Shown here piece by piece: positions 2,842 to 54,920 of a DNA stretch of 64,000 nt; within the stretch, counting starts at the first letter, position 1, and the number at the start of each line of letters is the position of its first letter. The position numbers were made by a program, and so were the translations under genes. Source of the DNA: Rhizophlyctis rosea (Eukaryota > Chytridiomycota > Chytridiomycetes > Rhizophlyctidales > Rhizophlyctidaceae). The notes under the pieces were generated by a model, which searched no databases, was not told the origin of the DNA, and worked only from the letters and a program-made list of their open reading frames with translations. Location of the stretch: contig JADGJC010000100.1 in the NCBI GenBank assembly GCA_027596075.1, forward strand, positions 60,080 through 124,079, in the 5' to 3' direction.

Positions 2842-8622
<5,781 letters not shown>

Positions 8623-34445: not shown

Positions 34446-36061
34446 CTACTTCTCCTCCACAACCTCCTCAGAAAACAACTTGAGCTTCTTCGCGAAAGCC
34501 GCGCGCAACTCTTTGTTTTGTGCCTTCAAAGCCTGTGCAATAGCCTCCTCCTGCTCCTTCCTCATCCGCTCCTCCAGCTCCACCAAAGCCTTCTTCAACT
34601 CCTTATCACTCTCCGTACGCAACTGGGTCTCCATCTTTCTCAATTCCCCCGCATGTTGCTCCGACAACTCATTCCTCAATCTTTCGGACACCTCAGCCCT
34701 TTCCGTCCTCCACTCCTCATCCAACTTCTCCGCCCGTTCCAATCCCATGACTTTGCTTCGTAAACTGTCTCCCCGCCCCTCCGAGATTCATCACACCGTG
34801 CCTGGATGTCCTCCCGCAAGTGCTTCTCTTCTTCATACCGCTTAACAAACTCCACTTGCTGTTTCTTCGCGCCTTCAAACCGCGTCTCCCACTCCGCCGC
34901 CGACGCCCTCTCGAACTTCAGGTCCTCCTGAAGGCTACGCAAATTGGAACGCAGTACTTCGACCATCACAACGGCCTCGTCCCGCTCCTTCGTCATGCGG
35001 ATCAACTTATCATCGGCACCAACAACACCACCGACAACCGCCACTTCCTCCCCCCCACCCGCACCACTCGGCCCAGCTCCACGCTCCAACAAACTGGCAT
35101 TCTGCCTCAAAAATGCCTCCTTCTCCTCCATCATGCGTGCGATGACTTCATCCTTTCCACGCAATTCACCGACTTTCTTCAATAACTCCTCATTATCCTT
35201 CCTCAACTGCAACTTCATCCCAACCCCATCAACCGAGGACCTTAGCAACCCATACGCTTGCTCGAAATTCCCCAAACGAACATGACTCTGTAACATCATC
35301 TCTTGCATGTAGAGATCAATGACACCGTTCTTTGCCCATTCCTCGACGTGGTGGATAACAGCGTCGAATTGCTTGTAGTTGTACAAGTTGGTGATGAGAG
35401 AGCGTTGGATGGTGATTACGGCGGGGTGGTCACGGGGGAGAGCGAGAATAGCGTTCAGGTACGCGTCTTGTGCTTCGTCAAATCGGAGTTGGAGCATGTG
35501 GTCCGTCCCGAGGGATTGGAGGCGGGAGGCCTGGGAGAGTTTCTCCGCAATGTTGTCTGTGCTGCTGTACTGAGACTCCGAAGTCGACACCGGGTGGATG
35601 AACGTCTTCATTTTGTCTTTCACGGTTTGAGGAGTGAGTTCGTCCACTTCAAGGAAATCGGCGATCTGCTGTTCGTTTGTCGTCATTGAGAGTGAGGTGT
35701 TGCGGAGGTCTGCATGGGCCTTTCTCAAATCCTGGAGCTCGAGCTTCTGTCTAATGATCTCGTCCTGCAACTCTGCAACCTTCCTTCCCTCAGCCTTATC
35801 CCAAGATTTCAAGATATCCGACTGGGGAGACGGTGTTCGCGACCACTCTTCCAACTTCGTCACAAGCTTTCTCTGACTAGCACGAACACCACGGCGAGTG
35901 GTGAAGTTGATATGTTTTTTATTCGCGAGATAAAACGCGTTAATGTGTTCGTGACAACCAGAAGTATACTGTTGGAAGAATTCAATCATGACGGCGTTTT
36001 CTTCACCAGTCGTCCACGGTTGTTCCGGCGTAGGAGTGCGCTCCGGCTTTGATATCGACAT
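34446..36061 (-). CDS. Gene J: TPR-like/coiled-coil protein, founder-like copy of a three-member local family
   Basis: Unknown family. It starts MSISKPERTPTPEQPW and continues with a helical segment (IEFFQQYTSGCHEHINAFY), an acidic/Lys-rich coil, then TPR-like helix pairs (LQLRFDEAQDAYLNAILALP, NYKQFDAVIHHVEEWAKNG, RLGNFEQAYGLLRSSV) at about residues 190-300, then a long coiled coil. The first frame ends at 34676; the continuing coiled coil (MGLERAEKLDEEWRTERAE ... FAKKLKLFSEEVVEEK) is in another frame from about 34748, so a single shift lies near the GGGGCGGGG run at about 34770-34780. A 32-base GT-AG segment spans it, but other introns here are at least about 50 bases, so I think it is a real or sequencing indel. 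Paralogues are at 42133-43934 and 47486-49182 on the same strand. RNA cluster 1 lies just to its right, divergently oriented. Confidence 0.65.
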
Positions 36062-37163
36062 GATGGTGACAAGTCAAAAAGGGGTCGGAACAATGTGGAT
36101 GAAGGGTATTTTATGATCTGTATGCATTCAATTTGATGCAAGGATGTCAATATGGCGTATCACGATGCTTGGATGTGCTCATACCAAATGGCTGGCCCTC
36201 GTCAAGGTTGATTGAAAGACCCCCGCATACCTCTCGAACTATTCGACAATAACGACACGGAGCCAATCACGGAGCTGGTGCTTCTTCAAGAACTTCTGAA
36301 AAACAGGAGTTGGCATATTGCGCATACGAAGCAAAGCAAGGTACACAGAACTCACCATTTACGACCAGGGACAGCCCGCAAACGGCTGTAGCGAAACTTC
36401 GCGAGCACTGGTCTCACGATACAAACGGTCAGAGTGCGAAGGAGCGCGCAACGCGCAAGAACAGGGAAAAGCTATTGACTTACCTTTGCCAGTTGAGGGT
36501 CAGCGCAGCAAGTGCTATGTGTCGGTTGTCAACAGCTTTGTGGGATAGACGAGGTGGTCTTCGAGTTCGGCGATAATGACGATAAACACGAAATGCAACA
36601 AGGAGGGAAGATGCACGACCAGGGTGTTTGTGATATTTCAAGCTGGTAGTAAGGGTTCCCGTGACGTTGAGCATGCCACCATCCACCCTCGCCACTGTTG
36701 TTTCAGCACTGATATTGGTACCACATCATAACTGCTATTCACTTCTCCCGCTTGTTTACCACCTATGACTCCTGTGGATTGGAATGCATTCAACGGACCC
36801 TCGCGGTCTGATGTGAAACCCAATTCAATTGTCGCCGAAAATGGTCAAATTGTCCTCGGAGCCTTCAACAGGTGCAACGATGGACATCATGGCAGTTGAC
36901 TTCAAATCCAGGCTCCAGCCAAAAATCAAATTGCTACCCATCCCAATATCCGATTTCCACTTTCCCACACTTTTTGTGCCTTTTTCGCCCCTTCTTCTGG
37001 CTACGCTGCGCTTCCTCATCCGCACGAAGCTCATAGACTCAATCGAAGGCAACCACGGAGTAAACTCCTCGACACATACTTCATCAGTCTCCCGCAATTA
37101 TTCTTCTAAGAACGTCCGTCAATTCGCGGCTTGGTCTTCATGTCGGTACAACAACGTTTTGGG
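36062..37163 (+). other. Divergent spacer / presumed 5' leader of RNA cluster 1
   Basis: Lies between the start of gene J (leftward) and the first structured RNA unit (rightward). It contains no convincing coding sequence. By position it should hold promoters of both; cassettes 2 and 3 have corresponding spacers of about 600 bases. Confidence 0.4.
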
Positions 37164-37604
37164 TACGTGCTAACAACCTCTGTGACAACACCCCACGTCC
37201 CGTCAGTTGGACCGAGATAGAGTCTTATGCTCGATCTTAGTGGGCAGGGCATCCTGGAATCCGGGATCGCCTCGGTTGTATGGAGTTGTTGGCATAAAAG
37301 CTGGATCCATTCGCAGGCCGTGTGTGGAGCAATCAAGGTTGACACTCTACTTCTCTCCACTTTTGGGGAGGTAGACCGCATGGGCTGCTGCGGTCCAGAG
37401 TAGGGAGCACTCCTGGAATCCGGGAGTGCGCTGTCGTCTGAGATTGTTTCGCGCGGGAGTGCACGAACCATTGCCTGGTATGGGGATAGCCATACCGTAA
37501 GCGCATGTAGTACTGCCTCTCAAGCACTGTCGGTGAATGGTGTGGAAACACTGGGCCTTCCGTTCACCGGGGGCATGGAGTACACCAGCTTTGTAGTACT
37601 CCCC
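37164..37604 (+). ncRNA. Structured RNA unit A1 (cluster 1)
   Basis: First unit of cluster 1, type A. Shared features in order: GTACGTGCT start, outer stem CCCCAC/GTGGGC, a small hairpin with loop AGTTG, a third hairpin ending CTCGATC, variable hairpin hp1 (CATCC-TGGAATCC-GGAT), the motif GCATAAAAGCTGG, a GACCGCA/TGCGGTC hairpin, variable hairpin hp2 (GCACTCC/GGAGTGC) with the same loop TGGAATCC as hp1, a type A-specific hairpin GGTATGG/CCATACC with loop GGATAG, and the closing box CACCAGCTTTGTAGT, which can pair with the AGCTGG motif. No reading frame is conserved with A2 and A3, while helices are. Not a match to any RNA family I know. Confidence 0.75.
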
Positions 37605-38015
37605 AGGACGTCTTATCCTTTCATAAATAGCCATACCTGGTACATATTTCCGCTGTTGGCAGCAAGTGACTTTGGCGCTAATCTCTACAACCTTCACCAG
37701 CTCGCACGCACCTCAAACTCATCCCTCAACCTTGCGCGGAGCTCATCCAAACCTATAAAATGGTGGCCGCAATGCTTTCCCTATATCGACTTCCGGCGCA
37801 CCCGACGTTGCCATCATTCATATCACTGTGCGCACCGCAATCACGCCTTCCTCTCATCAAAGCAAGGTGAGATAATTAAATTCACGGCAGAGTCATTGAA
37901 TCGAACTGGAAAGTTCAATCGCACTAAATATTGCTTTTCGTTACAGCTCGGCCAAACTAGGCGACGCATCAAGCACTCTGCCGCAACCCCACTTTCGTCC
38001 GATTCGCAATATTTT

Positions 38016-38435
38016 GAACGTGTCGATACTATTGTGGCAAGAACCCCACGTCCTCTCGGTTGGAGGGAATTTGAGCCTCGCGCTTCAATTAGTGGGGTAG
38101 GCAATGCTGGAATCCGGCAGCGCCTCATTTGCGCAATAGCGTTGGCATAAAGGCTGGTCCATCGACCTGGTTGTGTGTGAGGCAGCTCTGGGTAACACTT
38201 TGGTATCCCCTCTTTGGGGAGAAGGACCTTCGGGTCTGGTTTCAGGGAGCACTCGTGGAATCCGGGAGTGCGTTGTTACTTGGGGCTGTTTCGCCGGGGA
38301 GCTTTGAGAACCATCGCTTGGTTGTGTTCGCACGCCTCGCATGTAGTAACTTAGTGGCCCAGCATAATCAGTGACGTGGAAGGGAAATGTGTCCTCCTTC
38401 GGGAAGGCATGGAGTACACCAGCTTTGTAGTTCTG
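38016..38435 (+). ncRNA. Structured RNA unit B1 (cluster 1)
   Basis: Type B unit: GAACGTGTCGATAC start, box GTGGCAAGAACCCCACGTCC, stem CCCCAC/GTGGGG, hp1 with loop TGGAATCC, GGCATAAAGGCTGG motif, TCCCC-TCTTT-GGGGA hairpin, GACC-TTCG-GGTC tetraloop hairpin, hp2 GCACTC/GAGTGC with loop TGGAATCC, and end box ACACCAGCTTTGTAGTTCT. It is followed by a consensus intron 38473-38536 (GTATGC ... CCGCAG). Type B lacks the GGATAG hairpin of type A. Confidence 0.75.
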
Positions 38436-38567
38436 CTGAAGGACGTTCTCTCTTTTTCTGGAAGGCATATCAGGTATGCACCACGGCATCGTCTGGCAAG
38501 AACTTCGTTGAATTATCACTAATCCTCGCTCCGCAGATTTACACATATCCCTTCCCCAACCTCTGCC

Positions 38568-38952
38568 GAACGTGTCGGTGCTTCCGTGGCAAAAACTCCA
38601 CGTCCCCTCAGTTGGAGGGAGATCAAGCAAAACCGCTTGATCTTTGTGGAGTAGGCGAAGTCTGGGGACCCGGGTGACGCCTCACTTGCGCGATCGCATC
38701 GACATAAGAGCTGGTTCCATCCTTTTTGGTCATGTGTAGAACAACATCGGGCGACACTCTGGTATCCTCTATTTGAGGAGAAGGGCTCTTAGGGCCTGGT
38801 TTCAGGGAGCATTTCTGGGGACCCGGGAATGCGTTGTCGTTCGACGTGGTTTTGCGGGAGAGTTTTCGGACCTTCCAGCATGGCCAGAGAGGTGGAAAGG
38901 AAAGACGCGTCTTCTTTTGAAGTCGCAGGGAGTACACCAGCTTTGTAGTTCA
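38568..38952 (+). ncRNA. Structured RNA unit B2 (cluster 1)
   Basis: Type B. The outer stem is CTCCAC/GTGGAG where other units have CCCCAC/GTGGGG, a two-sided compensating change. The third hairpin is the perfect GATCAAGC/GCTTGATC, and the T-loop hairpin is TCCTC-TATTT-GAGGA. hp1 and hp2 share loop TGGGGACCCG; hp2 stem is GCATTTC/GGAATGC. It ends with ACACCAGCTTTGTAGTTC. A GT-AG intron 38990-39053 (GTATGT ... TACAG) follows. Confidence 0.75.
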
Positions 38953-39131
38953 AGCAGACAACCTCAAACTTTCTGAAGGACGGTGATGGGTATGTATCGC
39001 GGATGGTATTAGACATCTTCCCCTTCGATCATCGCTAATCTCATCCAATACAGATCTAAATCTCTTCCGTTCGAACAAAAAAGCTTATCTCTCGAACGAC
39101 CATCAACCTCCTTCAATTTGCATCATCCCTC

Positions 39132-39565
39132 GAACGTGCTTGCGCTTTCGTGGCAAGAACCCCACGTCCCCTTATAAGGGAGATTGAGCAAAACCGCTTG
39201 ATCTTAGTGGCGGTAGGTGATGCTGGGTTTATACGGCGTCACCTCGGTTGCGCGATCGCGTCGGCATAAGAGCTGGTTCCATTTCTCTTTGTTCGCGTGT
39301 GGGGCAACATCGGGCAACACTCTGGTATCCCCTTCTTTGGGGAGAAGGACCTTTCGGGGTCTGGTTTCAGGGAGTACCTCTGGGCTTATACGGGGGTACG
39401 TTGTTGCTTGGTGTTGTTTCGCCGGAGGGTTTTGAGGAACCATCGCTCGGTGTGTCTATCCGCACGCCTTGCATGTAGTACTTGAGCTACTCCAGCATGG
39501 CTAAGAGGTGGATAGGAAATGTGCGCCTCTTTGGAGGGCATGGAGTACACCGGCTTTGTAGTTCT
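39132..39565 (+). ncRNA. Structured RNA unit B3 (cluster 1)
   Basis: Type B. The AGTTG hairpin is replaced by the palindrome CCCTTATAAGGG. hp1 is GGTGATG/CGTCACC with loop containing GGGTTTATACGG, and hp2 is GTACCTC/GGGGTAC with the near-identical GGGCTTATACGG. It has GGCATAAGAGCTGG and ends ACACCGGCTTTGTAGTTCT. It is the last long unit before terminal element T1; no clear intron donor follows it directly. Confidence 0.72.
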
Positions 39566-39873
39566 GATTGGTTTACGAATCTTGTGAACCATTACTTGAT
39601 GCACCAACCCCCGCCAAACATCCTCGGTACCACCTTCGATCACCATCAACCAACTGCCACCTCGATTGTCGCAAGTGCTGCTTGGAATCTTGAGTGGGAT
39701 GACTGCGAGCGGGTTTTAGAAGATGCCAACGTCAGCGATGGGTATTCTGCAACATTGACTAATAAACTACCATCATCGTTCTTCCCGCAACGTCGACGAT
39801 TGACAACACCCGCGTCTTCAGCTCGCGAAAGTTACCTTCCCCACTCTTCCCCCCTTCCCAACCATCCCTCCGA

Positions 39874-39949
39874 GCTTTGGTCTTTTGAGAATCGCCCTTG
39901 TCGACCTTGGTCGTCTTGGTGCGAGAAGGGTTCGTAGCCCTTACAAAGC
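39874..39949 (+). ncRNA. Terminal RNA element T1 (cluster 1)
   Basis: A compact three-stem element closes each cluster. The outer stem GCTTTG/CAAAGC encloses the invariant TCTTTTGAGAA, a TCGC...GCGA helix with a variable apical part, and the hairpin AAGGG-TTCGTAG-CCCTT. It ends the series A1-B1-B2-B3 and is a good candidate 3' end domain of the RNA. Confidence 0.75.
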
Positions 39950-40192
39950 ATGAAAAGGATATTGGGAGCGGTGAAGGTACTCAATATGCTCGTACATGTG
40001 TGATTGACAGGTTCACGAAAGTGATTCGTACACCACCTCATTGCATCACATCAGCTTCTTGTGGCCGTGTTATAACCCATTGTATCAAAATCAGAAGATA
40101 CTTTTGTGGGGAATACTTATTGGGTTTCAATCATACTAGACATTGTACATGCGAAAACAACCTGACCATCTCCGTCACCCCAAGCTCGCCCC

Positions 40193-41094
40193 TCAAGTTC
40201 GATAATAAGCCATCGAATCCTCCGAAACAAACAGCACCGTTTCACCAAGCGCATCCGTACCCACCAGGGCAATATACCTATCCTTGAAAATATAACCGTA
40301 CTTCCACGGGAATTCCAGCAGCGTCTTGTCCAGCCACACAATCTTGGCAGAATTCGGTTCACTACTATTACTCAGCAAGCCATGCGGGCCTCCATCCGGC
40401 GCATCCGCGACGACCGTCGGGTTTTGCAACACCCGCATGCGCGGATGGGGTTTACGTCGAAGATCAACATCATCCGGAACTTCTCCATCAGCTTCTTCGT
40501 CCAAAAAGGTGTTGGAGAAAATGCTCATGCGAGCTAGCGTGATTGATTTCGTTTCGGATGGCGAGAGGACGAACTTCGGTTTCAACAAGTGCTCAAGATG
40601 GAGAACTATCGAGAAGGGTTTGAGTTCGTCGTCCTTTGCGTATTGGAGGGCACGGAGGAGAGGAAATGGGTCGAATGAAGGGTTTTTGAAGATGCTGGTA
40701 GACTTCTTCAGCCAGACGTTGCGAGTTTCGGTGCGGTTTCCTATTTGCATATTCAGGTAGTGGAAGAAATTTTCGAATTGCCTGATGTTGGTGTTCGTGT
40801 TGTGCCAATTAGTTGGTATGTTTTTTTTTGTGTGTATGCTAAGACGACTTTGACAATTGGTATGGGCTGAGTTTATGCAACATACCCATAAGACTCCACC
40901 ACAAGCTTCGCTTGAGCTTGCCGGACTTCCACACATAGCGGTTCCGTGACTCGGTAGAAGAACTTGTTCATCAACAACGGACTCTTGACATCTACCGGCC
41001 CGCCAGTCGTCCGCGCGCGAGAGACGAGCGGTTCGAGAACGTATGAAAAGATTTGGATTAGGAGTTCGTCTGGCAGAGACTCGAAACGCGCCAT
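40193..41094 (-). CDS. F-box-like protein 1
   Basis: Two exons (40886-41094 and 40193-40781), 265 residues. The first exon starts MARFESLPDELLIQIFSYVL, an F-box-like helix pattern, which would bind Skp1 in SCF ubiquitin ligases. The second exon has family-specific blocks: SIFKNPSFDPFPLLRALQYA, RKPHPRMRVLQNPTVV and FPWKYGYIFKDRYIALV. The intron splits a Gly codon (phase 2) at the same place in the two paralogues at 61954-62813 and 63404-63867. The start at 41094 was preferred over an upstream ATG because it places the F-box at the N-terminus as in the paralogues. Substrate unknown. Confidence 0.75.
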
Positions 41095-42132
41095 TTTGTG
41101 AGGCTTTTGCTTTTGGAAAGGGGAAGGCAAGGTTGTTGAGGTATGTTTCGTCGTTGTTTTTATCCTGTGCGGTGGAAGAACCTTTAGCAAGCTGCAGGTT
41201 GGAACGTGCACGGGTAGGATCGTCAGTTCTCGAATTTGCGCGTTGAAGAGTGCCATATACCTTCCAATGAGAAGGAAACGCTGATAGTAAGGTGTTACGA
41301 GTTCGCACTACAGCCTATATTTGGAGCAATAGCGGCGCTACACAGTGGCTCTATGTCAAAGTCCTACGCGTCTGTGCTGGGCGATGGGAAGATGGGTGGA
41401 AATGATCTGTGGGAAAAGCGATGGATCATGAAGCGCCGTGAGTCGTGACGCAACCCACCTATGAAATTCCCATCGAAATGTGAATCACTGCGCCACCCAA
41501 GCCATATAGTACCGGTCCCCATCAATTCCAATTTCCGGCCACACGAAATTGATAAAACAATTCCATCAGTCCCAAAATCACGAGAAATGGCTTCTCTCGT
41601 TAACGAGGAACACGCCCCGAGTTCTTCCGCTTCACCAAATGCTTTCACCATCGACTTTTCAAGTCTGTTGGTAGGAGCTGATAGCTACATGGTGAATAAC
41701 AGGGAAAGGATTATGTCAAGGTTGCGTAAATTTTTAAACAGAAGTTATAGCAAGCGAAAAGTAAAAAGTGTATTTCACAAAGTGTAAATCATACGGTGTA
41801 TACATCAAAGAGGAAAATCGTACCCCTACAGCTACTGTGCAATCAAATTTGTAAAGAATATGTACCAACGGCGTTTTCGCTACCGCCGCGTAATCCCCAA
41901 CCAATGCAAGTGCAATAATGTAACAAACCCCTACATGCTGCTAACAATCCCCTACACATCATCCCTACTACATGCGTCCCATCAATTCCATTATCCCATC
42001 ATGAATAAAAAAGCATCCCAACCCTATGCTACATCCAATAGAAAAGATTTAATCATGCCGTGCAGACAACTCTACTCAAAGAACTCTCCGCCTCATACAC
42101 CCACCCCTCTCATCCCCACCCCACAAAACACT
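41095..42132. other. Intergenic region with one doubtful small ORF
   Basis: A 108-codon plus-strand ORF (41461-41787) ending RKFLNRSYSKRKVKSVFHKV overlaps this stretch; it has no recognisable domain and I do not call it a gene. The right part is the 3' flank of gene K. Confidence 0.35.
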
Positions 42133-43934
42133 TCACGACCTCGCCCCACCCGCACCCGCACTCCCGCTCGAACCGCCGGAAAACAATGATTTGGCAAAGG
42201 CATCAAACCCGACCCTCAATTGCGCCTCCTTCTGCTTCAACGCATCCTCATACTCAACCTTCTGTGCATCAATCTGACTCTTCAACTCCCGTTCCCTAGC
42301 ACGCAACTCCTTCTCCTTCTCGGCCAATGCATCCTTCAGCTGAGCATCAAACTGCGTCTCCAACCGGGCTTGCAACAAGTTCGTAGTGGCCGCCAGATCC
42401 CTGACGCCTCCTCCCGCCCCACCACACGTCCCATTTGTCGCCCTCGCTCCGTAGCACGTTCCCGGATCTTGCTTTCCCCAAGTCGAGCCAGTGCGAGTTG
42501 TTTTGACAGCGTGTGGACTTGAGCCGCGAGCGAGACCCGCTCCTGCCGTGCCCGTTCCTCCGTTTCGCGTTTCTCCTGTTCCTACCGCCTACGCTCCGAA
42601 GCCAGTTCCTTCCTCTCGCCTTCTCGCATCCAAGAAGCAGCAAGCTGCGACGACAAGGAGTGGATCTGAGATGCTAGCATAACCCTTTCCCGGCGCGCAT
42701 CTTCAAGCATCTGAACCTTCTCTTCATCCCTTACATCGCGCTGAATCCTCCACTCAAGCTGCTTGCGCATATTGGCATGCGTTTGCGTATTCTTTTCCTC
42801 CACCGTTCGAGCCCATTTTGCCCTCCACGCGTCCCGCTCCCCTCTAAGACGTTCCATAGTCACTTCAGCCGCCCTCAAATTCTGACACAATTCATTCACA
42901 TCCTTCACCCAACTCTTCTCCCTTGCTTCAAACGTCAGAATCTGACTCGCATCCGTCTCCCAACTCGCCTTCATCTCCTTCAATTCCTTCTTCAACCGAT
43001 CAATATCCGCCTTCGATGTGGCCGCCATTTCATCCAACGCAACCTTCAACGCCCCAACATTCTCACAAGCCTCCACAAACAACGTTTGCCACCCTCCCCT
43101 CACACCAGCAACATCCCAAAGTTCTGACAAGATCGGGAACGCCTCCTCATACAGTCCCTGCTTTCCTAGCAACAGTGCGCGCATATGGAGGACAGCGGCC
43201 GTCAAAGGAGCGTGATACGCGACGTCGTACGTGAATTTTATGGCACGATCAATAAGGCCGATCTTGTCGTACTTGCCGATATGGAGGAGGATGAAGGCGG
43301 TTTGGTTTGCGTGTCCGGCGGGGAGAGACTTGACGGCATTGATAAGGGATGCGTCAGAATCGTCGTATTTTTGTGCTTCGAAGAACGATGTTGCAGCTTG
43401 GAAGTTAGCGTCGGAGAGTTGACTTTGATCTGGGGTGCGCGTGATGGGATGTGGGCTGTTACGGATGATGTCGACGCGGTCTTTGACAGCTTTCAAGGTC
43501 AGCTCCGGAACCTTCAACAATCCCGCAATCTTCTCCTGCAACGCCAACCACTCGTTCTTTGACTTTTCGACCTCTTCGACGCGCGCCCTCGACGTTGCGA
43601 CCTGCTGCTTCGCCTTATCCAGCTGTTTCTGGATCTGCGATCCCGGTTGCCCCGACGGTGTGTATGACGCTTTCAGTGTCCGATCACTATCCCTGACGAT
43701 CGTAGACTGCTTCTTGAGAAGCGCATCCACTTTCCGGCGGATAGAGCCGACGCCGTGGGTTTCGGAAACGTCACCCCAGTAGAGAATGTCTGACGTGTCG
43801 TTCAGAAACGTCAAGAGGGTCTCGAAGTGCGTGATGGTGTATTGACGGTAGAATTGTTGCAACAACTTATGAGTTTCTGACTCAGTGTATGGACGCTCGG
43901 CACGGTCATTGGCCGGGGTTGCGGAGGCGAGCAT
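42133..43934 (-). pseudogene. Gene K: second TPR-like/coiled-coil family member, disrupted
   Basis: Homologous to genes J and L. It starts MLASATPANDRAERPYTESE, then QFYRQYTITHFETLLTFLND, a coil with LKVPELTLKAVKDRV (J has VDELTPQTVKDKM), TPR-like helices (AATSFFEAQKYDDSDASLIN) and a long coiled coil. The first frame stops at TAG 42582-42584 after ELASERRR, where continued reading gives EQEKRETEERARQERVSLAA. About 190 bases later one base is missing (after GREEA), and the correct frame resumes as RDLAATTNLLQARLETQFDA to the end GGSSGSAGAGGARS (stop at 42133). Around the stop a 36-residue stretch is tandemly duplicated (RVMLASQIHSLSSQLA / RVSLAAQVHTLSKQLA). Two separate lesions make pseudogene status likely unless they are sequence errors. 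Confidence 0.7.
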
Positions 43935-44547
43935 GGTGGAGTACGTTTGGGATTATGTATGTCCGCGTTTATTTTGGGTGGTGTTCGCGAATGGTCGACG
44001 AGGATGACTTCGTGGGCTGGGTCTGTGGAGATCAAAAGGTGTTCACAAAGCCGTTTGCATGATATAAGTGTTTTTCTATAATGGGTATGGTTGTGCGAGC
44101 CCCTCCCCCGTGTCCCCTCCATCCATTCTCAAAGTCTCTGATTGCACCCGCGCGATTTCGACAGGGTCCAGCCTCTCCACTTCAATCAACAACCCAAAAT
44201 GGAAAAACTGATTTGGATTGAACCGGGTGATACGAGCATGTCACATGATTCTGATCTCGCATCTCAGCCCTCACCTTCTCCAAGGAAATCTCCACCGAGT
44301 AGACTAGATAACCCTTTCCTTGTCGGGCAGTTCTGGCAACCACCACCACACCGTTCAAATAACCGTTTACCTCCACAGATACCCTCGCCACCCAATTTCC
44401 AGCAATCTCGGAACTTGATTTCCGGTCGCTTCATACACTCTTGGCATCAACTTTGACGAATACGACGAAAGATCCTCACAAATATCGTCCACCTTACTCC
44501 ATCCGCAACACCACGTTCTCCTCCACGACGGACAATATAGCGACCTG
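43935..44547 (+). other. Divergent spacer / presumed 5' leader of RNA cluster 2
   Basis: Between the start of gene K and unit A2. No conserved ORF. Presumed to contain both promoters. Confidence 0.4.
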
Positions 44548-44992
44548 GGAACGTGTTGGCAACCTCTGTGACAACACCCACGTTCCGCCAGTTGGGCGGG
44601 AATCGGGCTTCTCGCTTGATTCCAGTGGGCAGAGCAAGTGCTGTAGTCAGGGTTTGCTCCGGTTGTGCAGAGTTTTTGGCATAAGAGCTGGATCCGTTGC
44701 TGGCGGTGTGTATAGCAATCAAAGGCAACGCTCTACGTACCTCCTTTTTGAGGGAAGGAACCACGTGTGCTGCTGTGGTTCGGAGTAGGGAGCAACTGGT
44801 AGCAGTCTAGCGGTTGCGCCGTTGCTTGAGGTTGTTATGCGCGAGAGCACCACAACCATCGCCTTGTGTGGGGATAGCCACACTGTAAGTGCATGTAGTA
44901 CTGGGGCTCTCAGCACTGTCAGTATATGCGATTGGGAAACACTTGTGCCTTCATATCGAAGGCATGTAAAGTACACCAGCTTTGTAGTGCTT
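44548..44992 (+). ncRNA. Structured RNA unit A2 (cluster 2)
   Basis: Type A. The AGTTG hairpin stem is CCGCC/GGCGG (A3: CCGTC/GACGG; type B: CCCTC/GAGGG). The next hairpin GAATCGGGC/GCTTGATTC uses two G-U pairs on this strand, which would be C-A mismatches on the other. The hairpin AACCAC/GTGGTT corresponds to GACCAC/GTGGTC in A3. hp1 loop is TGTAGTCAG, hp2 GCAACTG/CGGTTGC with GTAGCAGTCTAG. The type A hairpin GTGTGG/CCACAC keeps loop GGATAG. Intron 45030-45088 (GTATGT ... GACAG) follows. Confidence 0.75.
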
Positions 44993-45261
44993 CCCATGGC
45001 GCTTTCGAAGTTTTTGAATCATAATATCGGTATGTCTTTATGCCTTTCCTCAATCGACTTGTATCCGAACTAATCCGTTGCCAGACAGGTGAAACCAATC
45101 ACGATTGCGTTCGTGTGAACGGCTATTGCCCCTGACGGGGATTGGGTTGGAGTAAGGTGAGCGGGTTGTTCATAAAGTAGATCACCGCAACCGATACTGA
45201 TACTTTCCTTCTCTAGCGGCATACGTCACGTATATCTCGGTCAACACCTTCGCATCACCAT

Positions 45262-45668
45262 CGAACGTGTTAGCGCATTCGTGGCATGAGCCCCACGTCC
45301 CCTCAGTTGGAGGGAGATTGAGCTCCCACGCTCGATCTTAGTGGGGTAGGGCAGGTGCTGTAGTCAGGGCTTGTCTCGGAGTGTGCAAATGCGCTAGCAT
45401 AAAAGCTGGGTCCATGTCTGGTTCTTGTGGGACAATTGATTGATAGCACCCCACGCACCTCCTATTTGGGGGAAATGGTCATTTATGGCCGGAGTGGGGA
45501 GTACTGGTAGCAGTCTAGCGGTGCGTTGCTATTGAGAGGTTGTCCTGTGCGGAGTCTTGGGTTATGTCTATCCGCATAATCTGGGCTTCGCGACACGGCC
45601 AGGATGTTGGATCGGGAAAAGTGCCTCTAGAATCTAGAGTGCATGGAGTACAACAGCTTTGTAGTTCT
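45262..45668 (+). ncRNA. Structured RNA unit B4 (cluster 2)
   Basis: Type B: start GAACGTGTTAGCGC, CCCCAC/GTGGGG outer stem, CCCTC-AGTTG-GAGGG, GATTGAGC/GCTCGATC, hp1 loop TGTAGTCAG and hp2 loop GTAGCAGTCTAG as in A2. It ends AACAGCTTTGTAGTTCT, preceded by an inverted repeat CTCTAGAATCTAGAG also seen in B5. Intron 45737-45802 (GTTTGT ... GACAG) follows. Confidence 0.75.
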
Positions 45669-46327
45669 TTTTCTGGTTTGAACCCATGCGAGATGCGAGA
45701 GTTTTTTTCGGTTAGCTATGCACGATATATATTATGGTTTGTACATCTCAGGTGTTCGTTTCGTTTGTGTTGAAGGCGAACTGACAGTTTTCTTCATGAC
45801 AGATATCCATTATTGATTTCCACGCAACTACGTCTGCGTTCTATCGCGATCGGCACGATCACGGCGACATCAGTTTCAAGCGCTTCATTGGGAGTCCCAT
45901 CTTCCCACGCCATCATCCTCCGCTCCATCATCCCCCGCTCCCTCATCTCCCGCACCATCCTCCCGCTCCATCCATCCACCGCCCGATCTCCAAATTCAAC
46001 CCAATGGTCCACCTCTTCTAACTACTATCTTCCCGCAACTCACCTCTCCTCCCTCTTCGCCGCCCATCCCGAAAACTCTCAGCCCACAACCGCCATCAGC
46101 AACATCACCCCCCACAGCACCCGACCTCCTCGCACTCTGCAAGTAAATCACCCGCAGGAACAATCACTCTCTTTGGCATTTCTGCTGAGGCCGGCGCGGC
46201 ATATCAGTCTTTGTCGAAGCTGAGAAACCGGTGCTTTTCGAATTTTGCCACCCATGCCGCATGCATCATCATTCGACAGTCTCGTCTTACGTATCTCTTC
46301 CCTCCCCCTACCTCATCCTACCTCCAA

Positions 46328-46413
46328 GCTTTGGTCTTTTGAGAATCGCCCCGGACGACACAAAAAACTTTGCGTCGTCTGGGTGCGAGAAGGGTTCATA
46401 GCCCTTACAAAGC
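46328..46413 (+). ncRNA. Terminal RNA element T2 (cluster 2)
   Basis: Same layout as T1: GCTTTG/CAAAGC, TCTTTTGAGAA, TCGC/GCGA, AAGGG-TTCATAG-CCCTT. The variable helix is here a 10-bp stem CCCGGACGAC/GTCGTCTGGG, different in sequence from T1 and T3 but in the same place. Confidence 0.78.
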
Positions 46414-47485
46414 GTAACTGGGATGTGTATCGGGAGTTACTGGAAAGGTTTGTTTGGTCTGAGGAGCTATGACGTGATGTCTTGACACTTCTTCCCTTTT
46501 ATCTTTTTGTGAAAATTAAAGAAAAAATCACCCTATCTTGTCCGCAAAGCCTCCGACACAAAATTCAGAATCGCCAAAAATCAGTGCAGGAAATGGCCGA
46601 GCTTCGCGTTAGGAATGTCCGAACTTCCCAAGAGACAATGTGACCTTTCCAGCACCTCATAAGTCTGGCTATTTGCAGCTAGTTGCAAAATACCCCGGCT
46701 TAATGAAATTTCACCCAATACACTAATTACATTTCCATTCCGCCGTTGTACCAGCCTATAGTGGTCCGGTTTTCCCCAACGAATCCATATCAGGAGAAAT
46801 GTAGAGTCGCATGCTTTACCGGCGACTGTAAGTCGCGTGGGGCAAAAGTCTAGGGTGCGCAATTTCTTGTGTTCGAAGTCGTCTAATTGTGAAGTATCGG
46901 CACAGTCGGCACTAACCTTCAAGTAAACAAAGCAGGATATTGTATTTGAACCTTTAGTTGGTGCCAGTTGATTGTATTTCCGTTGCGTTCATCATGCAGT
47001 AATCTGCGGTGGCGGTTCATGGCTTTGTATGGTACTCTGTATCAGAAACACGAACCAGACATCTCCCTAACACTAATCAATCAACCCCTCCCGTCGCATA
47101 ACGCGATCATGATTTCGCAATAAAAAGAAAAACAAAGGAAATATATTGGTACCCCACCAAACGACATGAAATTTTACAAAACATGAAGTGAGACATCGTC
47201 TCTCCAACAGCAACAAGCAAAAAAAAAAACTGATATGTACTGCTAATACTAACCCACCCAACCCGCCACACAAAAGCCGTTCCAACCCACGCAAAGTAAA
47301 AGAAAGAAAAGTACAGAAAGATGCATCCATAACCATGAGAAACTTATTCCGCAAGTTTCCCACCAAACCCACCACATCATATCCACTCGCCAAGTTTGCA
47401 ACCCCGAATCCCCATATCACTAGAAGGCGCTCCATAACCGAAATCCTCCACCCACTCCTCACCATCTCATCCATCGACTAACTCA
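46414..47485 (-). other. Intergenic region with a possible small leftward ORF
   Basis: A minus-strand ORF at 46581-46922 (113 codons, containing LTVAGKACDSTFLLIWIRW and RRNGNVISVLGEISLSRG) has protein-like composition but no homologue or splice partner I recognise. The right end, with A- and T-rich runs, is the 3' flank of gene L. Confidence 0.3.
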
Positions 47486-49182
47486 CTACATCGCCCCGGT
47501 CGTGCCCAACCCCGCACTACCACTACCTCCACCCGCACCCCCCACAAACATCCCCCTCAGCAACCTCTCAACCCCCTCCCGAACCTCCTTCTCCTTCGCC
47601 GCCACCGACGCCTCGTATTCGGCCTTCTGCGCCAGCAACCGCTCCTGGAACTCCGCATCCATCGCAGAAATCGCATCCTTCAACTCCTTCTCCTTCCCAT
47701 CCATAGCCTCCTTCATCTGCGCACCATGCTGTCCTCCAATCGCGCCTGCAAAAGGTTGGTCGTCAATGCCATGTCCCTGAACGCTTCATCACGACCGAGC
47801 ACCCGTCCCGCTTGCTTCCCCTTCGCGAACGCACGTTCTTTGACTTTGGATTCACCCAACCTCAATGATGCGACCTGGCGCGAGAGGATGTGAACCTGAT
47901 CGGCGAGTGCAACACGATCGGCCTGTGCCTGCTTTTCCATCACAGCTCGCTTCGCCTGCCACGCCCCCTCCAAAGCATCCCTCTCAATCCTCCAATTCAA
48001 ACGGTCCAACTTCATCGCCTGACGGAAACCCTTCTCAACTTCTGCCCAGAGTCGCCGTTGCTCGTCAAGTTCTTCGACGGCTTCCGCGTGATTCTGCTGA
48101 AACAAGTTGCGGTGGGCTCGCAGGTCGACAAGTTTGTCTAGAGCCTGGTCGAGCTTCTCCTCAAGATCCGTCACCACCTTGGCTCTCTGGTCGAGATCGG
48201 CGCAGGCATTGACGTACGCTTTTTTGAGCTCACCGTCCATGAGTACGCGCTCCGTGAATTCCTTGGACAACGAGACATATTCAGCAGTCCTGGTCGCCAA
48301 TTGCTCTTTCAAGACCCCGATTTGCTCAATGGCCTCGGCGTATTTGTGCTCCCATCCACCAACAACACCACCGACTTCCCACAACGTGAACAGGATTTTC
48401 ACGGCCTCATCGTCCCGGCCCATCCGATGCAACATCCAGGCCCGCTTGTGATTGAGAGTAGGGCTGAACGGCATGAACTGCTCCACCTCGTAACTCCATC
48501 TCAAAGCTTGCTCAACCATTCCCAAGCCGACGTAGTCATCAATGTAGTCGATTGCGATCGACGTTTGGTCATCATGTCCACTTGGGAGGGTTTTGATGGC
48601 GGCGATGGTGGCCTTGTCGGATTGTGAGTACTTCTGTTCGGCGAAATGAGTTTTGGCTTCTTCGAGGAAGGTTTTGGAGGACGAGAATTCGCTGGGTGTT
48701 GCAATGACGATGTTCATTCCGGGGTCGGGACGGCGAAAAGGAAGGAGAGGCTTTCTTCGATTTGTTGTCCGCCACAGCCTTGATTGCTTTCACCGTCAAC
48801 TCCTTGACACCCAGTAGCTCTTGTATCCTCTCCCGCTCGGCACAGACTTCCTTCCGGAGAGCCTCGTATTTCGCTTGACTTTCTTTTGCCGCTGCGATCG
48901 ATTCTGCGTTTTGGGAGCTGACAGCTTTCAACTGCTCGGCGTTGACGCCTGCCTCCTTCAGCCAAGACTGTAGAGCCTTAGCGACCCGCCTCCTGGTGGT
49001 GTTTTGGTTCTGTTCTTGGGCACGGGGGCCAAAGTCCAAGAAACTCCGAGTCGCCTCCAGAAAATCCAGCATGTCGTCGTTGTAAGCGACTGCGTATTGT
49101 TTGAAGACGGTAAGAAGAATGTCATCAAACGCGGCGTCAGAGGCAGCGGACGAGGAGAGCTGTGTGGATTCCGGGTCAGCAT
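47486..49182 (-). pseudogene. Gene L: third TPR-like/coiled-coil family member, frameshifted
   Basis: Homologous to J and K. The start at 49182 (MLT, compare MLAS in K) is out of frame with the next conserved part (LTVFKQYAVAYNDDMLDFLE). Another shift lies near 48715-48760 between VKELTVKAIKAVADN and TPSEFSSSKTFLEEAKTHFA, and a third near 47728, after TNLLQARLED, before AQMKEAMDGKEKELKDAIS. The TPR-like part (KTHFAEQKYSQSDKATIAAI, GMVEQALRWSYEVEQF) and the Gly-rich C-terminus (GGAGGGSGSAGLGTTGAM) match the other copies. All lesions are single-base size. RNA cluster 3 lies to the right. Confidence 0.7.
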
Positions 49183-49827
49183 CGTGGGAAAGGATGCAAG
49201 ATGAGAAGCGTGAGATGGGGTACGTATGGTTGAACGGTTTTGTGACCGTCTATGCTATGACGCTTGCCAAGGGCTTTTGATATCTAGTCGGCGGCCAGGA
49301 CGGTTTATGGATACTGGTAGACTAAGTGGTACGGATGGTATGCAATGTAGTAAGACAAGTCTGATAGCAGTCCGGCCACCAGTAGTCAAGCGCCAAGAGC
49401 AGATAGGTACTTGCATATGGGGAGTGAGGATTGCAGATGGGCGGCCTGGCCTGGGACTTGTGTGAGAGTTTGAGTTGCGGATGAGTCACGGAGGAGAGTT
49501 TTGAATGATCCAAATCGCGATGTGATCAGCGGCTGATGCATCGTGACTCACAAAACAATCTGGGACTGGACCCTGATGCGAGTAGGTAGCATGACCCACA
49601 GCATCAGATAGGAATCAGGTGTACCAACTTTCTGCTTTTCCGTTTCAATTCAACTTTCTTCCCGGCAACTTTGGGACCGACTCGGGTGTAAGAAGCCCTT
49701 CCGTCACAGTACATCGTCTATTCGCACCTCTTGCACCTTCGTTCGCCTCCTTATATTCGATATCGCTCTCGATCTCCACTCTCACCCTCAAATCAAGACC
49801 AAGCGCGACAGTCGATGCTGCGGCCTG
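49183..49827 (+). other. Divergent spacer / presumed 5' leader of RNA cluster 3
   Basis: Between gene L and unit A3, about the same length as in cassette 2. No conserved ORF. Confidence 0.4.
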
Positions 49828-50257
49828 GAAACGTGCTGGCAGTCTCTGTGATAATGCCCACGTCCCGTCAGTTGGACGGAGATTGAGCCTTTCGCTCAGT
49901 TTTAGTGGGTCAGGCACGCGTAGTACTACGGTGTCTCGTTTATGCGGAACTGTTGGCATAAGAGCTGGGTCCAGAGCTGGCAGTGTGTAGGGCAAACGAG
50001 GGCAGCACTCTGCGTACCCCTTTTTGGGGCAAGGGACCACGTGTGCTGCTGTGGTCCGGAGTAGGGAGTATCGCGTAGTACTACGGATGCGCTGTTGCTT
50101 GAGGTTGTCCTGCGGAGAGTACCACAACCATCGCCGTGTGTGGGGATAGCCACACTGTAAGTGCATGTAGTACTGGGCTCTCAGCACCGCCAGTGATGGA
50201 TTGGGAAACACTGTGCCTTCAACAAAGGCATGTAAAGTACACCAGCTTTGTAGTTCT
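49828..50257 (+). ncRNA. Structured RNA unit A3 (cluster 3)
   Basis: Type A. CCGTC-AGTTG-GACGG hairpin, GATTGAGC/GCTCAGTT, GACCAC/GTGGTC, CCCC-TTTTT-GGGG, and the GGATAG-loop hairpin. Both hp1 and hp2 carry the exact 10-base palindrome GTAGTACTAC as loop. It ends ACACCAGCTTTGTAGTTCT; intron 50295-50355 (GTATGT ... AGCAG) follows. Confidence 0.75.
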
Positions 50258-50637
50258 CCCCAGGGCGCTTTTGCGACTTGAAATAATATTCATGGTATGT
50301 TTCACTATCCACACTCTACTCGAGCTACATCATTCTTATAAAATGTGTCAAGCAGGCTCTACAATTCCCCATTTTCCCCCGCACAATACTCGGGATGCGG
50401 TGCGCCATCGGATCCCCCGAATTCATGGTGACATTAACGGCGATGACTTTGCTCCGGCTCCAATGGCAGAAGATGTAGATGACAAGGTCGTGGGGTTAGT
50501 TGATGTCCTTCATTTGTCAGCTCAAAGCGCTCGCTAAACATACAGTCCAGTCTACCTGCAACATTTCGAAGACACCTTCGACTACAGCAATCAGCGGAAA
50601 TGGGCAGCATTCTTCAAGACAGCAGCCGCATCATTTC

Positions 50638-51037
50638 CGAACGTGCTGGCGCATCTTGTGGCAAGGCCCCACGTCCCCTCAGTTGGAGGGAGATTGAGTT
50701 CGGATGCTCGGTCTTAGTGGGGTAAGTACGCGTAGGACTACGGTGCTTCGGTTGTGCAAATGCGTCAGTATAAGAGCTGGATTCAAGCCTGGTTCGTGTG
50801 TGTGGCAATCAATTGGTAGCACTCCATCAAACCTCCTGTTTGGGGGGAGGGCCGTTTTGGTCAGACTGGGGAGTATCGCGTAGTACTACGGATGCGTTGC
50901 TACTGAGAGGTTGTCACGGGTGGGAGTCTTCACTTGTGTCTATCCGCACAACGGGCTCTCCGGCACGACCAGAATCTTGGATTGGGAAAAGTGCCTTTAG
51001 AATCTAGAGGCATGGAGTACAACAGCTCTGTAGTTCT
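50638..51037 (+). ncRNA. Structured RNA unit B5 (cluster 3)
   Basis: Type B. CCCCAC/GTGGGG, CCCTC-AGTTG-GAGGG, GATTGAGT/GCTCGGTC (three U-G pairs on this strand), CCTCC-TGTTT-GGGGG. hp1 loop is GTAGGACTAC, hp2 loop GTAGTACTAC. It ends AACAGCTCTGTAGTTCT; intron 51091-51140 (GTATGT ... ACGAG) follows. Confidence 0.75.
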
Positions 51038-51513
51038 TGCGATTAAGCCCGTTTCGTTGCGACATTCATCAACTTTTCATGACGTCTTTGGTATGTACTT
51101 GCAAATTGGTTTCTTTGTCGCACACTCTTTGACTGACGAGTCTTCCTCTTCGTGATGGATCTCGAATGTGTTCTTGAATCAGCCAGTCTCGAATCAAATT
51201 ACGACGAGAAGTCATTCGGATACGTCTGCAGACACCCTTCTCTCCATCACCTTTTTACCTCCCAACACTCTTCCCCGCCCATTTCCGCCTTCAATCCCGT
51301 CCATAAAGAACCAAGCCATCTCCATCTGCACCCGTGCATATGCGCGTAACTTCACCACCAGCAACTTGCTCTTCCATTTAAAGACCCGGAAACAATATGG
51401 CGACTCAACCTCACTTGCACCTAATCATCCCGGAGATACCCACCTGACATTAGTCCTCTATACTCTGCGATCTTATTGCCATTCTTTCTTTCCACCCTCC
51501 CACCTCACCTCGC

Positions 51514-51586
51514 GCTCTGGTCTTTTGAGAATCGCATGGATGACTTTTGTCTCCATCGCGAGAAGGGTTCATAGCCCTTACAGAGC
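51514..51586 (+). ncRNA. Terminal RNA element T3 (cluster 3)
   Basis: As T1 and T2, but the outer stem is GCTCTG/CAGAGC: both partners changed relative to GCTTTG/CAAAGC. The variable helix is ATGGA/TCCAT plus GAC-TTTT-GTC. TCTTTTGAGAA and AAGGG-TTCATAG-CCCTT are unchanged. Confidence 0.78.
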
Positions 51587-51775
51587 AATCGTCACCGGGG
51601 AGGAAAATACTTTTCGGTTTGCCAAATGTGGCTTAGCTGACGCGACTTGCCACATTGCACTTCTAACCCTGCCTGGCCTGAGTTCCACTTTCATCTTCCC
51701 ACCCTGCTCATCGTCATTTCCTCTTTCCAAAGGACAACCTCCCATACCAGAATACGGTGACGCTGCATAGCAAAA

Positions 51776-52599
51776 ATGCCAACCATTGGTAAGGTGCCGT
51801 ATTATAGGGCGTCACCGACAGCGACTGACATATTTTTGGACTCAGAAATCCAAACCAACGTCGCCATTCCAGATGTAAACAAACAGGTAGAGTGCAAGCT
51901 TTATGGCAGCAGGACGTCCACTCTCCTCGGCGCAAACCCTGGAACGACTGTATTCAAAACTCTACCTGAACAGCAAGAAATCGTCAAACAAATCTCCGCG
52001 ACCGCCGCTTCCGCACTTGGCAAGCCGGAATCGGTATGGAGTGTCTCCCACAGAAGTGCACCAGCAGCTATTTGAGAAGAAGTTTTGACGGTTGCTTCTC
52101 TCTTGACTATGTAGTACGTCTGCGTCGTCCTCAACGACAAAGTAACGATGAGCTTCGGAGGAAGTTTTGACCCAGCAGGTAGCCTGGAATGCTTACCTTT
52201 TACGAACAACAAAGGCACCGCCTGGAAACGTAATCCGATATCTCACTGAGCCATACTTCCCTACAATCAACAGCATTCGTCCGCGTGGGATCCATCGGCG
52301 CCATCGGCAAGTCCGAAAACAAGGTCTGATCCTCATAGTGATCTTCGCGAATCAGAAAGTCCGCCGTGCTCAAACTATGTGATGAATACCAACGCAGAAA
52401 ACAAGCGCCGCCATTTCCGAAGTCCTCGGCACAACCTTGGGCGTCCAGAGCGACCGCATGTACATCTTCTTCCAGGATTGGCCCCGCGAGGTTTGGATAT
52501 CAATCATGCGTTGCTGCGAAATTGGAAGCGGGCCAGTGTTTACTGACGTTTTCCTACAGAACACCGGCTGGAAAGGAGCTACTTTCGCCACGCTTTGAG
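51776..52599 (+). CDS. MIF-family tautomerase
   Basis: Macrophage migration inhibitory factor superfamily; members keep an N-terminal catalytic proline exposed after Met removal and tautomerise phenylpyruvate or D-dopachrome. Seven exons with consistent phases: 51776-51788, 51846-51886, 51974-52033, 52115-52178, 52274-52323, 52398-52490, 52561-52599; 119 residues. The protein begins MPTIEIQTNVAIPD, so Pro-2 is present but encoded on a 13-base first exon. Then ALGKPESYVCVVLNDKVTMS and FGGSFDPA, VGSIGAIGKSENK, SDRMYIFFQDWPRENTGWKG and the end ATFATL follow, all in family positions. Intron 2 (51887-51973) has no in-frame stop, so reading it as coding is possible, but it would insert 29 residues in a conserved helix. 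Confidence 0.93.
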
Positions 52600-53917: not shown

Positions 53918-54334
53918 GTGCGATTTGCGTCAGACGGATTTCAGAGAGATTGGTGTAAAGCAGATTTTTAGGGTATGATTAAATCGTTGCGCAAAGCAGA
54001 AAGTTGTGGAAACGTGAGGCGGAAAGGAGAGGAAGCACAGCAGGAAGTGGCCAGGCTGGAAGTTGACGGATTAATGAGTCAGGCTGAGTGGATGTATTGT
54101 CCGAACCTCTCGACAACTGCGCATGTGGCGTAGAAATGTGTTCCGAGCTTCATTCGCATCCTTCAAGACCAGACTGCTTCACTGACCGAACCTGCTATAC
54201 CCACACTGCGCTTCCCCTCTGAAACCTTGATTTGGATGCCCGATCGCCGAATCCGTCACGTCAGGGCCAACGGACAGGACAAGTACGTTGAACGGGAGGG
54301 GGTTCCATCATGAGCTTTGACAAGATGGAAAAGA
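53918..54334. other. Region upstream of ERH
   Basis: ERH promoter and spacer. Confidence 0.35.
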
Positions 54335-54920
54335 TGGTGCAGTGAACCTGGGTGCAATCTTTGGTGCAGTATCGACCGGTCTCGATTTCTGATAGATCTG
54401 AGTAAGAGCATGTCTGTTGGGGCTCCAAAGATGGTGACCTATGCGTAAATAGGGTGAAGCCAGAGGAAACTTTGGTGGAGGCTCCTCGCAATTCTGACGT
54501 GCCAATCCATCGTCAAATTTGGGTCTAGGAGGGAAAGACTAATCGAACCATCTAGTAGCTGGTTCCCTCGAGAGATTCCTTCAAGATAGCAGAAGCTCAT
54601 ATCAGTTTTGTGAGATGAGCCTAAGATTAGAGGCCCTGGGGCTGAAAAAGCCTTAAACTATTCTCAAACTTTGAATATGTAAGACATCCCGGTTACTTTA
54701 TTGAACCTGGACATCGAATAAGAGCTTCTGGTGGGCCATTTTTGGGAAGCAGAACTGGGGATGCTGGATGAAGCGGAGGTCCAGTTAAGGTGCCGGAATG
54801 CATACTTATTCAGAAACCACAAAAGGTGTTAGTTCATCCAGACAGCAGGAGGGTGGCCATGGCAGTCCGACTCTACTGAGTGTAACAAGTAACCTGCGGA
54901 ATGAACTAGCCTCCTTGATA
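54335..54920 (+). pseudogene. Fragment of large-subunit (28S) rRNA, diverged
   Basis: Collinear with a stretch of eukaryotic LSU rRNA. Recognisable universal blocks, in order: AGAGCATGTCTGTTGGG, ATAGGGTGAAGCCAGAGG, GACTAATCGAACCATCTAG, TAGCTGGTTCCCTC, GGTGGGCCATTTTTGG, GTTAAGGTGCCGGAATGC, CACAAAAGGTGTTAGTTC and GAATGAACTAGCC. Many substitutions and small gaps fall in positions that are normally invariant, and no rDNA neighbours (18S, 5.8S, ITS) are present. It is therefore a dispersed rDNA fragment, not a working gene. Confidence 0.88.

Follow-up and report, generated by a model that had tools for sequence, protein, structure and literature searches.

A stretch of 64,000 nucleotides (nt) from Rhizophlyctis rosea (contig position 60,080-124,079; hereafter the window) contains eight units of 385-443 nt, all on the plus strand between positions 37162 and 51036, which are confirmed here as a family of plus-strand structured RNAs with compensatory base changes. 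A preliminary description, made from the sequence letters, had claimed eight such units with a conserved series of hairpins, and all of them were found again. The units are of two types, A and B, and are arranged in three loci: locus 1 with A1, B1, B2, and B3, locus 2 with A2 and B4, and locus 3 with A3 and B5. To the first description, the present analysis adds two other genomic copies, an apparent internal duplication, matched hairpin tips, complementarity between loops of A and B units, splice signals, and an element termed X.

The consensus structure was calculated with RNAalifold from an alignment of ten sequences, namely the eight units of the window and the two further genomic copies, C2 and C84. 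The plus strand reached a value of -215, whereas alignments with shuffled columns gave -100.6 ± 5.8 (z -19.6). A significant value was obtained for the minus strand, too, although it lagged well behind (-147, z -15.5). When units were folded singly, the plus strand was more stable than the minus strand in ten out of ten cases, with shuffle z values of -2.7 to -7.2 for the plus and -0.8 to -4.9 for the minus strand, and single-sequence folds recovered 74-103 of 109-124 consensus pairs. Altogether, 90.8% of 1276 cells are paired in the consensus structure, whereas slid controls reached 40-44%. Two-sided changes occur at 56 of 130 pairs and in 126 cells, compared to 49.9 ± 5.9 in shuffles (none of 500 reached the observed value) and 18-35 in slid controls. 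A null simulated along a tree gave 28.7 ± 6.0 double-changed cells, with a maximum of 45 in 60 simulations, against 120 observed. Under this null, a single column pair, 273/292 in the stem of hairpin hp2, had an expectation value (E) ≤ 0.05, and two of the ten column pairs with E ≤ 5 belong to the structure (273/292 and 203/301). As ten sequences provide little power per pair, the support from covariation is aggregate; covariation, the proposed check of the preliminary description, is clear in the aggregate and weak pair by pair. Those of the two-sided stem changes quoted there that were searched as exact strings were recovered, but A1 reads CCGTC/GACCG, with a mismatch.

Because the consensus structure came from the very alignment used to score it, a split test was made, in which the structure was derived from one group of units and scored on the remaining ones in four different ways. 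In this test, 79-84% of the held-out cells were paired compared to 33-47% in slid controls. Double changes numbered 67, 20, 60, and 23 against shuffle means of 33.5, 11.9, 27.2, and 9.5, respectively; the second value only equals the shuffle maximum, while the other three lie above it. The split test is only partly independent, since the sequence alignment itself was built on all ten units.

The units are a new structured RNA family, since none of the families tested accommodates them and the literature searches made yielded nothing comparable to the tip behavior described below. Rfam includes models of ROOL, GOLLD, and OLE, group I and group II introns, RNase P/MRP, signal recognition particle (SRP) RNA, telomerase RNA, small nuclear RNAs (snRNAs), and U3. 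Scans of the whole window at gathering level gave no match for the units, and a scan of positions 36500-52000 at E ≤ 5 gave two sub-threshold matches to small nucleolar RNAs (snoRNAs), one between A3 and B5 and the other antisense at the start of A2. With 22.8 and 19.9 bits, both remain below the respective gathering scores of 45 and 50, and a snoRNA identity was therefore rejected. Neither a group I or group II intron core nor ROOL, GOLLD, or OLE was matched in either scan, and within 36500-52000, the matches with E values up to 5 included no RNase P/MRP, SRP RNA, telomerase RNA, snRNA, or U3. The earlier statement that no known RNA family has this layout thus agrees with the Rfam scans. Outside the genome, pattern scans of IMG/VR gave zero matches and one match, the latter with 11.4 bits over part of the covariance model. 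In 257 billion bases of prokaryote genomes, six stretches contained an 18-base motif compared to about seven expected by chance, and the covariance model lists none of them at E ≤ 1. Among the papers listed in searches of the open-licence PubMed Central (PMC) literature, nothing was recognised as this RNA.

The genome of 44.1 Mb in 634 contigs was searched with a 22-base 3' signature at up to three mismatches, which yielded ten matches, whereas a backwards control yielded none. The two copies outside the window lie on the minus strand at C2:156043-156446 and C84:23735-24142. The same ten copies resulted from the signature together with DNA searches using B4, A1, and the C84 copy as queries, and a 5' signature recovered seven of them and no additional site. 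Ten copies is a lower bound, as more diverged ones may escape the signature search. Just upstream of the C84 unit, two direct repeats (ATCAACCAGAGCC...) were noticed by eye at about 5330-5560 of the stretch analyzed for this locus (L015).

Each unit seems to be composed of two domains, D1 and D2, that are related to one another. Most units are closed by GAAC...GTTC. The helix 18-38/134-153 carries D1, in which a three-way element (two hairpins enclosed by CCCCAC...GTGGGG) is accompanied by the tip hairpin hp1. D2 is located on a second long stem; its parts have the order of those in D1, and its tip hairpin is hp2. A model of D1 (R1) finds D2 in B4, A1, and A2 with E values of 1.7e-4, 9.7e-4, and 2.7e-3, respectively, and in B1, A3, and B2 with E values of 1.2, 2.3, and 4.0, amid equally strong chance matches. 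With the reciprocal D2 model (R2), in-register matches to D1 were obtained in five of eight units (E 0.21-1.3), amid other weak matches. A profile-profile alignment of D1 and D2 with the tips removed scored 25.7 compared to 14.8 ± 2.0 (z 5.4), with a maximum of 20.2 in 150 shuffles. These similarities suggest an old internal duplication. Evidence to the contrary is that R1 finds no D2 in C2 and C84, nor in B3 and B5, and that R2 finds D1 in no unit under default filters; the kinship of the two domains is near the detection limit.

The tips of the two domains resemble each other within a unit. The mean score of hp1 against hp2 was 10.7 within units and 5.1 between units, a difference reached in none of 200000 permutations, while for three other parts of D1 and D2 the same-unit comparison gave no excess, and a fourth control provided no information. 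The match is strong (11-15) in the six units A1, A3, B1, B2, B3, and B5 and moderate in C84 (9). Tips also match between A and B units of the same locus: A1/B1, A2/B4, and A3/B5 scored 11-15 for hp1 and 20-22 for hp2, compared to 3-7 for other A-B pairs. For A2/B4, scores of 15 and 20 from local alignment were used, the tip identity by column being 0.28 with the tips out of register in the alignment. In a locus-wise comparison, in which B1 was chosen to represent locus 1, the observed arrangement was the best of six possible ones (101 vs. 28-56), with only three loci available. The bodies behave differently, as A and B bodies are 57-62% identical in each of the nine combinations, whether from the same locus or not, and A bodies are 72-83% identical to each other, yet their tips are unlike. 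Bodies without a same-locus excess and locus-matched tips indicate that the bodies follow the A/B class and the tips follow the locus. Several units depart from tip matching within the unit or within the locus, which counts against the explanation favored below. In A2 and B4, hp1 and hp2 are unmatched within the unit (6 and 5), the match within C2 is weak (7) and does not exceed that with A2 or B4, and the tips of B2 and B3 are unlike those of A1 (A1 scores 6 and 10 with B2 and 4 and 6 with B3).

The matching tips suggest that modules recognise either one common partner or each other. Predicted duplexes between tips of the same unit are stronger than others (-13.6 vs. -9.6 kcal/mol; 75 of 50000 permutations were as low), which results from the tips being identical quasi-palindromes. 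The non-identical tips of A2, B4, C2, and C84, on the other hand, pair no better than the tips of strangers, and direct tip-tip pairing as the cause of the match is not supported where tips differ. Direct pairing would fit loci 1 and 3, and one common partner fits all loci. A role of the tips as guides to genomic targets was rejected on the basis of exact and one-mismatch genome searches. Exact matches to the 15-base A3 tip are confined to A3 and B5; when one mismatch was allowed, the second B5 tip and one unrelated site were added, compared to seven sites in the backwards control, and the 13-base A1 tip was found in A1 alone.

A kissing loop between A and B is predicted as a likely contact between modules. 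In the hairpin at columns 347-364, the loop (K-loop) reads GGATAG in A1, A2, and A3 and CTATCC in B3, B4, and B5. This is the sole 6-nt loop-loop complement conserved in three loci; reversed or complemented controls contained no conserved loop 6-mer whatever, and none of 5000 column shuffles yielded such a complement, with any of B1-B3 allowed for locus 1. No intramolecular loop-loop contact is conserved, the best being present in three of ten units, with null maxima of 2.4 on average and up to 5. The contact is weakened by the fact that B1 has no K-loop, that B2 has no K hairpin, and that C2 and C84 carry CCGTCC. Furthermore, the K-loops of type B match a segment of their own unit at five of six positions and in B3 at all six (hand count), and putative pairing with this segment is an alternative to the A:B contact.

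The surroundings of the units contain signals of predicted introns. The motif GGTATGY follows 38-54 nt past the end of B1, B2, A2, A3, and B5, i.e. in five of eight units with 0.08 expected, and an intron scan located CTAATC and CAG ends ahead of B2, B3, and B4. By eye, introns of a dynein gene have comparable signals. B3 has no donor, and B4 has only GTTTGT at a distance of about 70 nt. Within the predicted spliced RNAs, the minimum-energy fold keeps 58-78% of the consensus pairs at locus 1 (79/115 in A1, 67/115 in B1, 91/116 in B2, and 83/124 in B3) and 61-89% at the other two loci (87/118 in A2, 87/119 in B4, 100/112 in A3, and 67/110 in B5). Element X has three copies in the genome, one after each array, and each copy has a four-way-junction fold (shuffle z -2.3, -5.8, and -3.6). 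It shows the compensated change GCTTTG/CAAAGC to GCTCTG/CAGAGC and contains a hairpin resembling a T-arm, AAGGG TTCRTAG CCCTT; a second loop has 4 nt. An assignment of X as tRNA or transfer-messenger RNA was rejected, as ARAGORN reported zero genes in the window.

At locus 1, A1 (37162..37599) consists of D1 at 37162-37303, D2 at about 37318-37473, and the K-loop at 37484-37489; its tips hp1 (37252-37266) and hp2 (37411-37425) are mutually identical. The tips of B1 (38015..38433), TGGAATCCGG at 38108 and 38256, are as in A1, whereas B2 (38567..38951) has tips of its own, TCTGGGGACCCGGG at 38661 and 38814, and its K hairpin is deleted. B3 (39131..39564) also has its own tips, and its K-loop is at 39456-39461. 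Introns are predicted between B1 and B2 at 38474..38536 (GTATGC..CACTAATC..CCGCAG) and between B2 and B3 at 38990..39053 (GTATGT..CGCTAATC..ATACAG). Between A1 and B1, a possible intron at 37640..37946 (CACTAAAT..TTACAG), whose donor GTACAT is weak and similarly offset, was seen by eye, and the scan reported none. The copy X1 follows downstream at 39871..39955. Locus 2 comprises A2 (44548..44990; K-loop 44872-44877) and B4 (45262..45667; K-loop 45568-45573), which match each other hp1 to hp1 and hp2 to hp2. The predicted intron between them extends over 45030..45084 (GTATGT..AACTAATC..GCCAG), and X2 is located at 46325..46415. At locus 3, A3 (49828..50256; K-loop 50144-50149) has the tips CGCGTAGTACTACGG at 49917 and 50072, and B5 (50638..51036; K-loop 50940-50945) has tips at 50729, one base off A3, and at 50877, as in A3. 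For the predicted intron at 50295..50545, the donor GTATGT was scanned and the acceptor CTAAAC..ATACAG was found by eye, the scan reporting no intron; X3 is located at 51511..51590. All these features are on the plus strand.

Upstream of each array and divergent from it, one of three paralogous proteins is encoded on the minus strand: an open reading frame (ORF) of 461 amino acids at 34676..36061 for locus 1, HDV00_000265 at 42582..43934 for locus 2, and two overlapping ORFs at 47713..49072 for locus 3. The proteins are mutually 21-32% identical and gave no Pfam or NCBIfam family above cut-off. A genome search with one paralogue found only the three of the window, and HDV00_000265 matched only itself among 7999 scored proteins. 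It is modelled as all-helical with low confidence, and the three proteins are called helical from this one model. The RNA units are far better conserved than the neighboring proteins between loci 2 and 3, with 81% nucleotide identity for A2/A3 and 77% for B4/B5 compared to 32% amino-acid identity; A1 and A2 are 74% identical compared to 21% for their neighbor proteins. Two points limit the case for these proteins as partners of the RNA, namely the poor AlphaFold model of HDV00_000265, with a predicted local distance difference test (pLDDT) value of 56.6, and the lack of a neighbor-protein paralogue near C2 or C84 in the one-query search.

While the computation supports the fold, strand, copy number, domain relation, tip synchrony, and loop complementarity, we infer transcription, splicing, docking, partner, and scaffold role from the sequence. 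The explanation that we favor, with about even confidence as a whole, is a spliced modular scaffold RNA with A/B docking and with matching tips directed to a common partner. The plus strand would encode large structured noncoding RNAs from three arrays of the form A-(B)n followed by X, and each unit would fold independently into a two-armed body of D1 and D2 with a tip hairpin on each. Units would reside in exons joined by ordinary introns, resulting in one spliced RNA with A, at least one B, and possibly X, in which A may dock with one B via the GGATAG/CTATCC loops. The assembly would display matching arm tips and thereby bind one common multivalent partner, possibly the fast-evolving helical protein encoded divergently beside the array or another copy of the RNA, and the whole may serve as an architectural RNA. 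A more specific version, which is possible but rather unlikely, is that the tips are a locus-specific identity code read by a cognate partner, either the own divergent helical protein or RNA copies. Code and reader would then diverge together, so that only parts of the same locus assemble; if true, a eukaryote would possess a system of self-recognition encoded in RNA hairpins.

An equally tentative alternative is that the RNA is structured but the tips became alike without function by short-tract DNA copying through gene conversion or template switching. The tips do follow the physical locus, and quasi-palindromic sequences, as the tips are, are prone to template switching. Against copying, the shared tract of identical tips stops at the tip, the bodies have no same-locus excess, and the three other parts of D1 and D2 have no excess within units. 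We regard it as improbable that the units are cis-regulatory or processing structures, i.e. a precursor cut into small RNAs or a control of the divergent neighbor gene. The arrays do begin 614-1101 bases from the divergent ORF starts, but the folds are multi-branched and closed by long-range helices, which distinguishes them from simple small-RNA hairpins, and no neighbor paralogue was detected at C2 or C84. Slightly less probable still is a low-copy mobile element, a satellite RNA remnant, or a repeat resembling short interspersed nuclear elements, the fold of which served its own spread. Such an origin would suit the dispersed single copies at C2 and C84. It is opposed by the number of only ten copies found by signature, by flanks without clear target-site duplications (longest match 3-7 nt), and by the 14 ORFs given to Pfam (of 122 with at least 100 amino acids), among which no reverse transcriptase or transposase was found. 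Compensatory changes inside each half of the family and the presence of the A-B-X arrangement with a protein gene three times are further arguments against it.

It is very improbable that the units are ribozymes or self-splicing introns belonging to a class not yet recognised: unit size and multi-domain fold are within the range of known ribozymes, but Rfam gave only the two sub-threshold snoRNA matches up to E 5, and the splice signals outside the units are of the spliceosomal type. Protein-coding exons with codons mimicking structure can be practically dismissed. In their favor is an open frame of 151 codons in A3, on the minus strand. Against them, none of the frames is open throughout the ten units (a shared frame would have refuted the preliminary description), a mean of 0.49 of columns is in one relative phase, two ORFs overlapping units have no protein homologue at E ≤ 0.1, and the changes are compensatory.

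Among known systems, bacterial type III toxin-antitoxin loci combine structured RNAs repeated in tandem with an adjacent protein gene; the RNAs are short pseudoknots and the toxin is a nuclease. The tandem RNA and the adjoining protein are alike here, but the neighbor has no nuclease match in Pfam or NCBIfam above cut-off, although it may be a nuclease of an unknown kind. Loop-loop contacts with changeable matching sequences occur in the pRNA of phage phi29 and in retroviral dimer-initiation hairpins, which are single RNAs without the apparent two-domain duplication or the A/B module pair of this RNA. To our knowledge, few large RNAs of eukaryotes show dense compensatory change except for those of the core machinery. 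With ten diverged copies in one genome, the structure is open to comparison within one organism, and a module resembling an internal duplication illustrates a route by which complex RNAs can grow. Joint changes of the tips in different hairpins, on bodies of different history, are a testable sign of intermolecular recognition, and the A:B loop, if real, would be a hetero-association between modules of one RNA. In passages of PMC12286853, GOLLD, ROOL, and OLE are described as large, elaborate bacterial and phage RNAs of poorly understood function, which form homo-oligomers via kissing loops and other RNA-RNA contacts with intermolecular covariation. The RNA described here is likewise large and elaborate, with a kissing loop that is a candidate by sequence alone; in contrast to those RNAs, as far as they are portrayed there, it is eukaryotic and predicted to be spliced from several modules, each of which has two related arms, and its candidate loop pair is of the hetero type (A:B). 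Fungal structured RNAs have been found comparatively in intergenic, intronic, and untranslated regions (PMC8216456, PMC5640933), and PMC8216456 describes its structures as present mostly in one copy per genome. Neither main text contains the word "chytrid", and a repeated multi-module RNA, as present here, is not described in the parts considered of either report.

Other features of the window are located outside the arrays. A diverged fragment of eukaryotic large subunit (LSU) rRNA at 54267-54971 on the plus strand (Rfam RF02543, model positions 675-1383 in two pieces) is the only rRNA match of the Rfam scan of the window and probably a pseudogene. The segments 1963-2238 and 13286-13564 form an inverted similar pair with 75.6% identity over 279 bases, and a gene for a HET-domain (heterokaryon incompatibility) protein is located at 14766-16775 on the minus strand (PF06985, E 6.8e-18).

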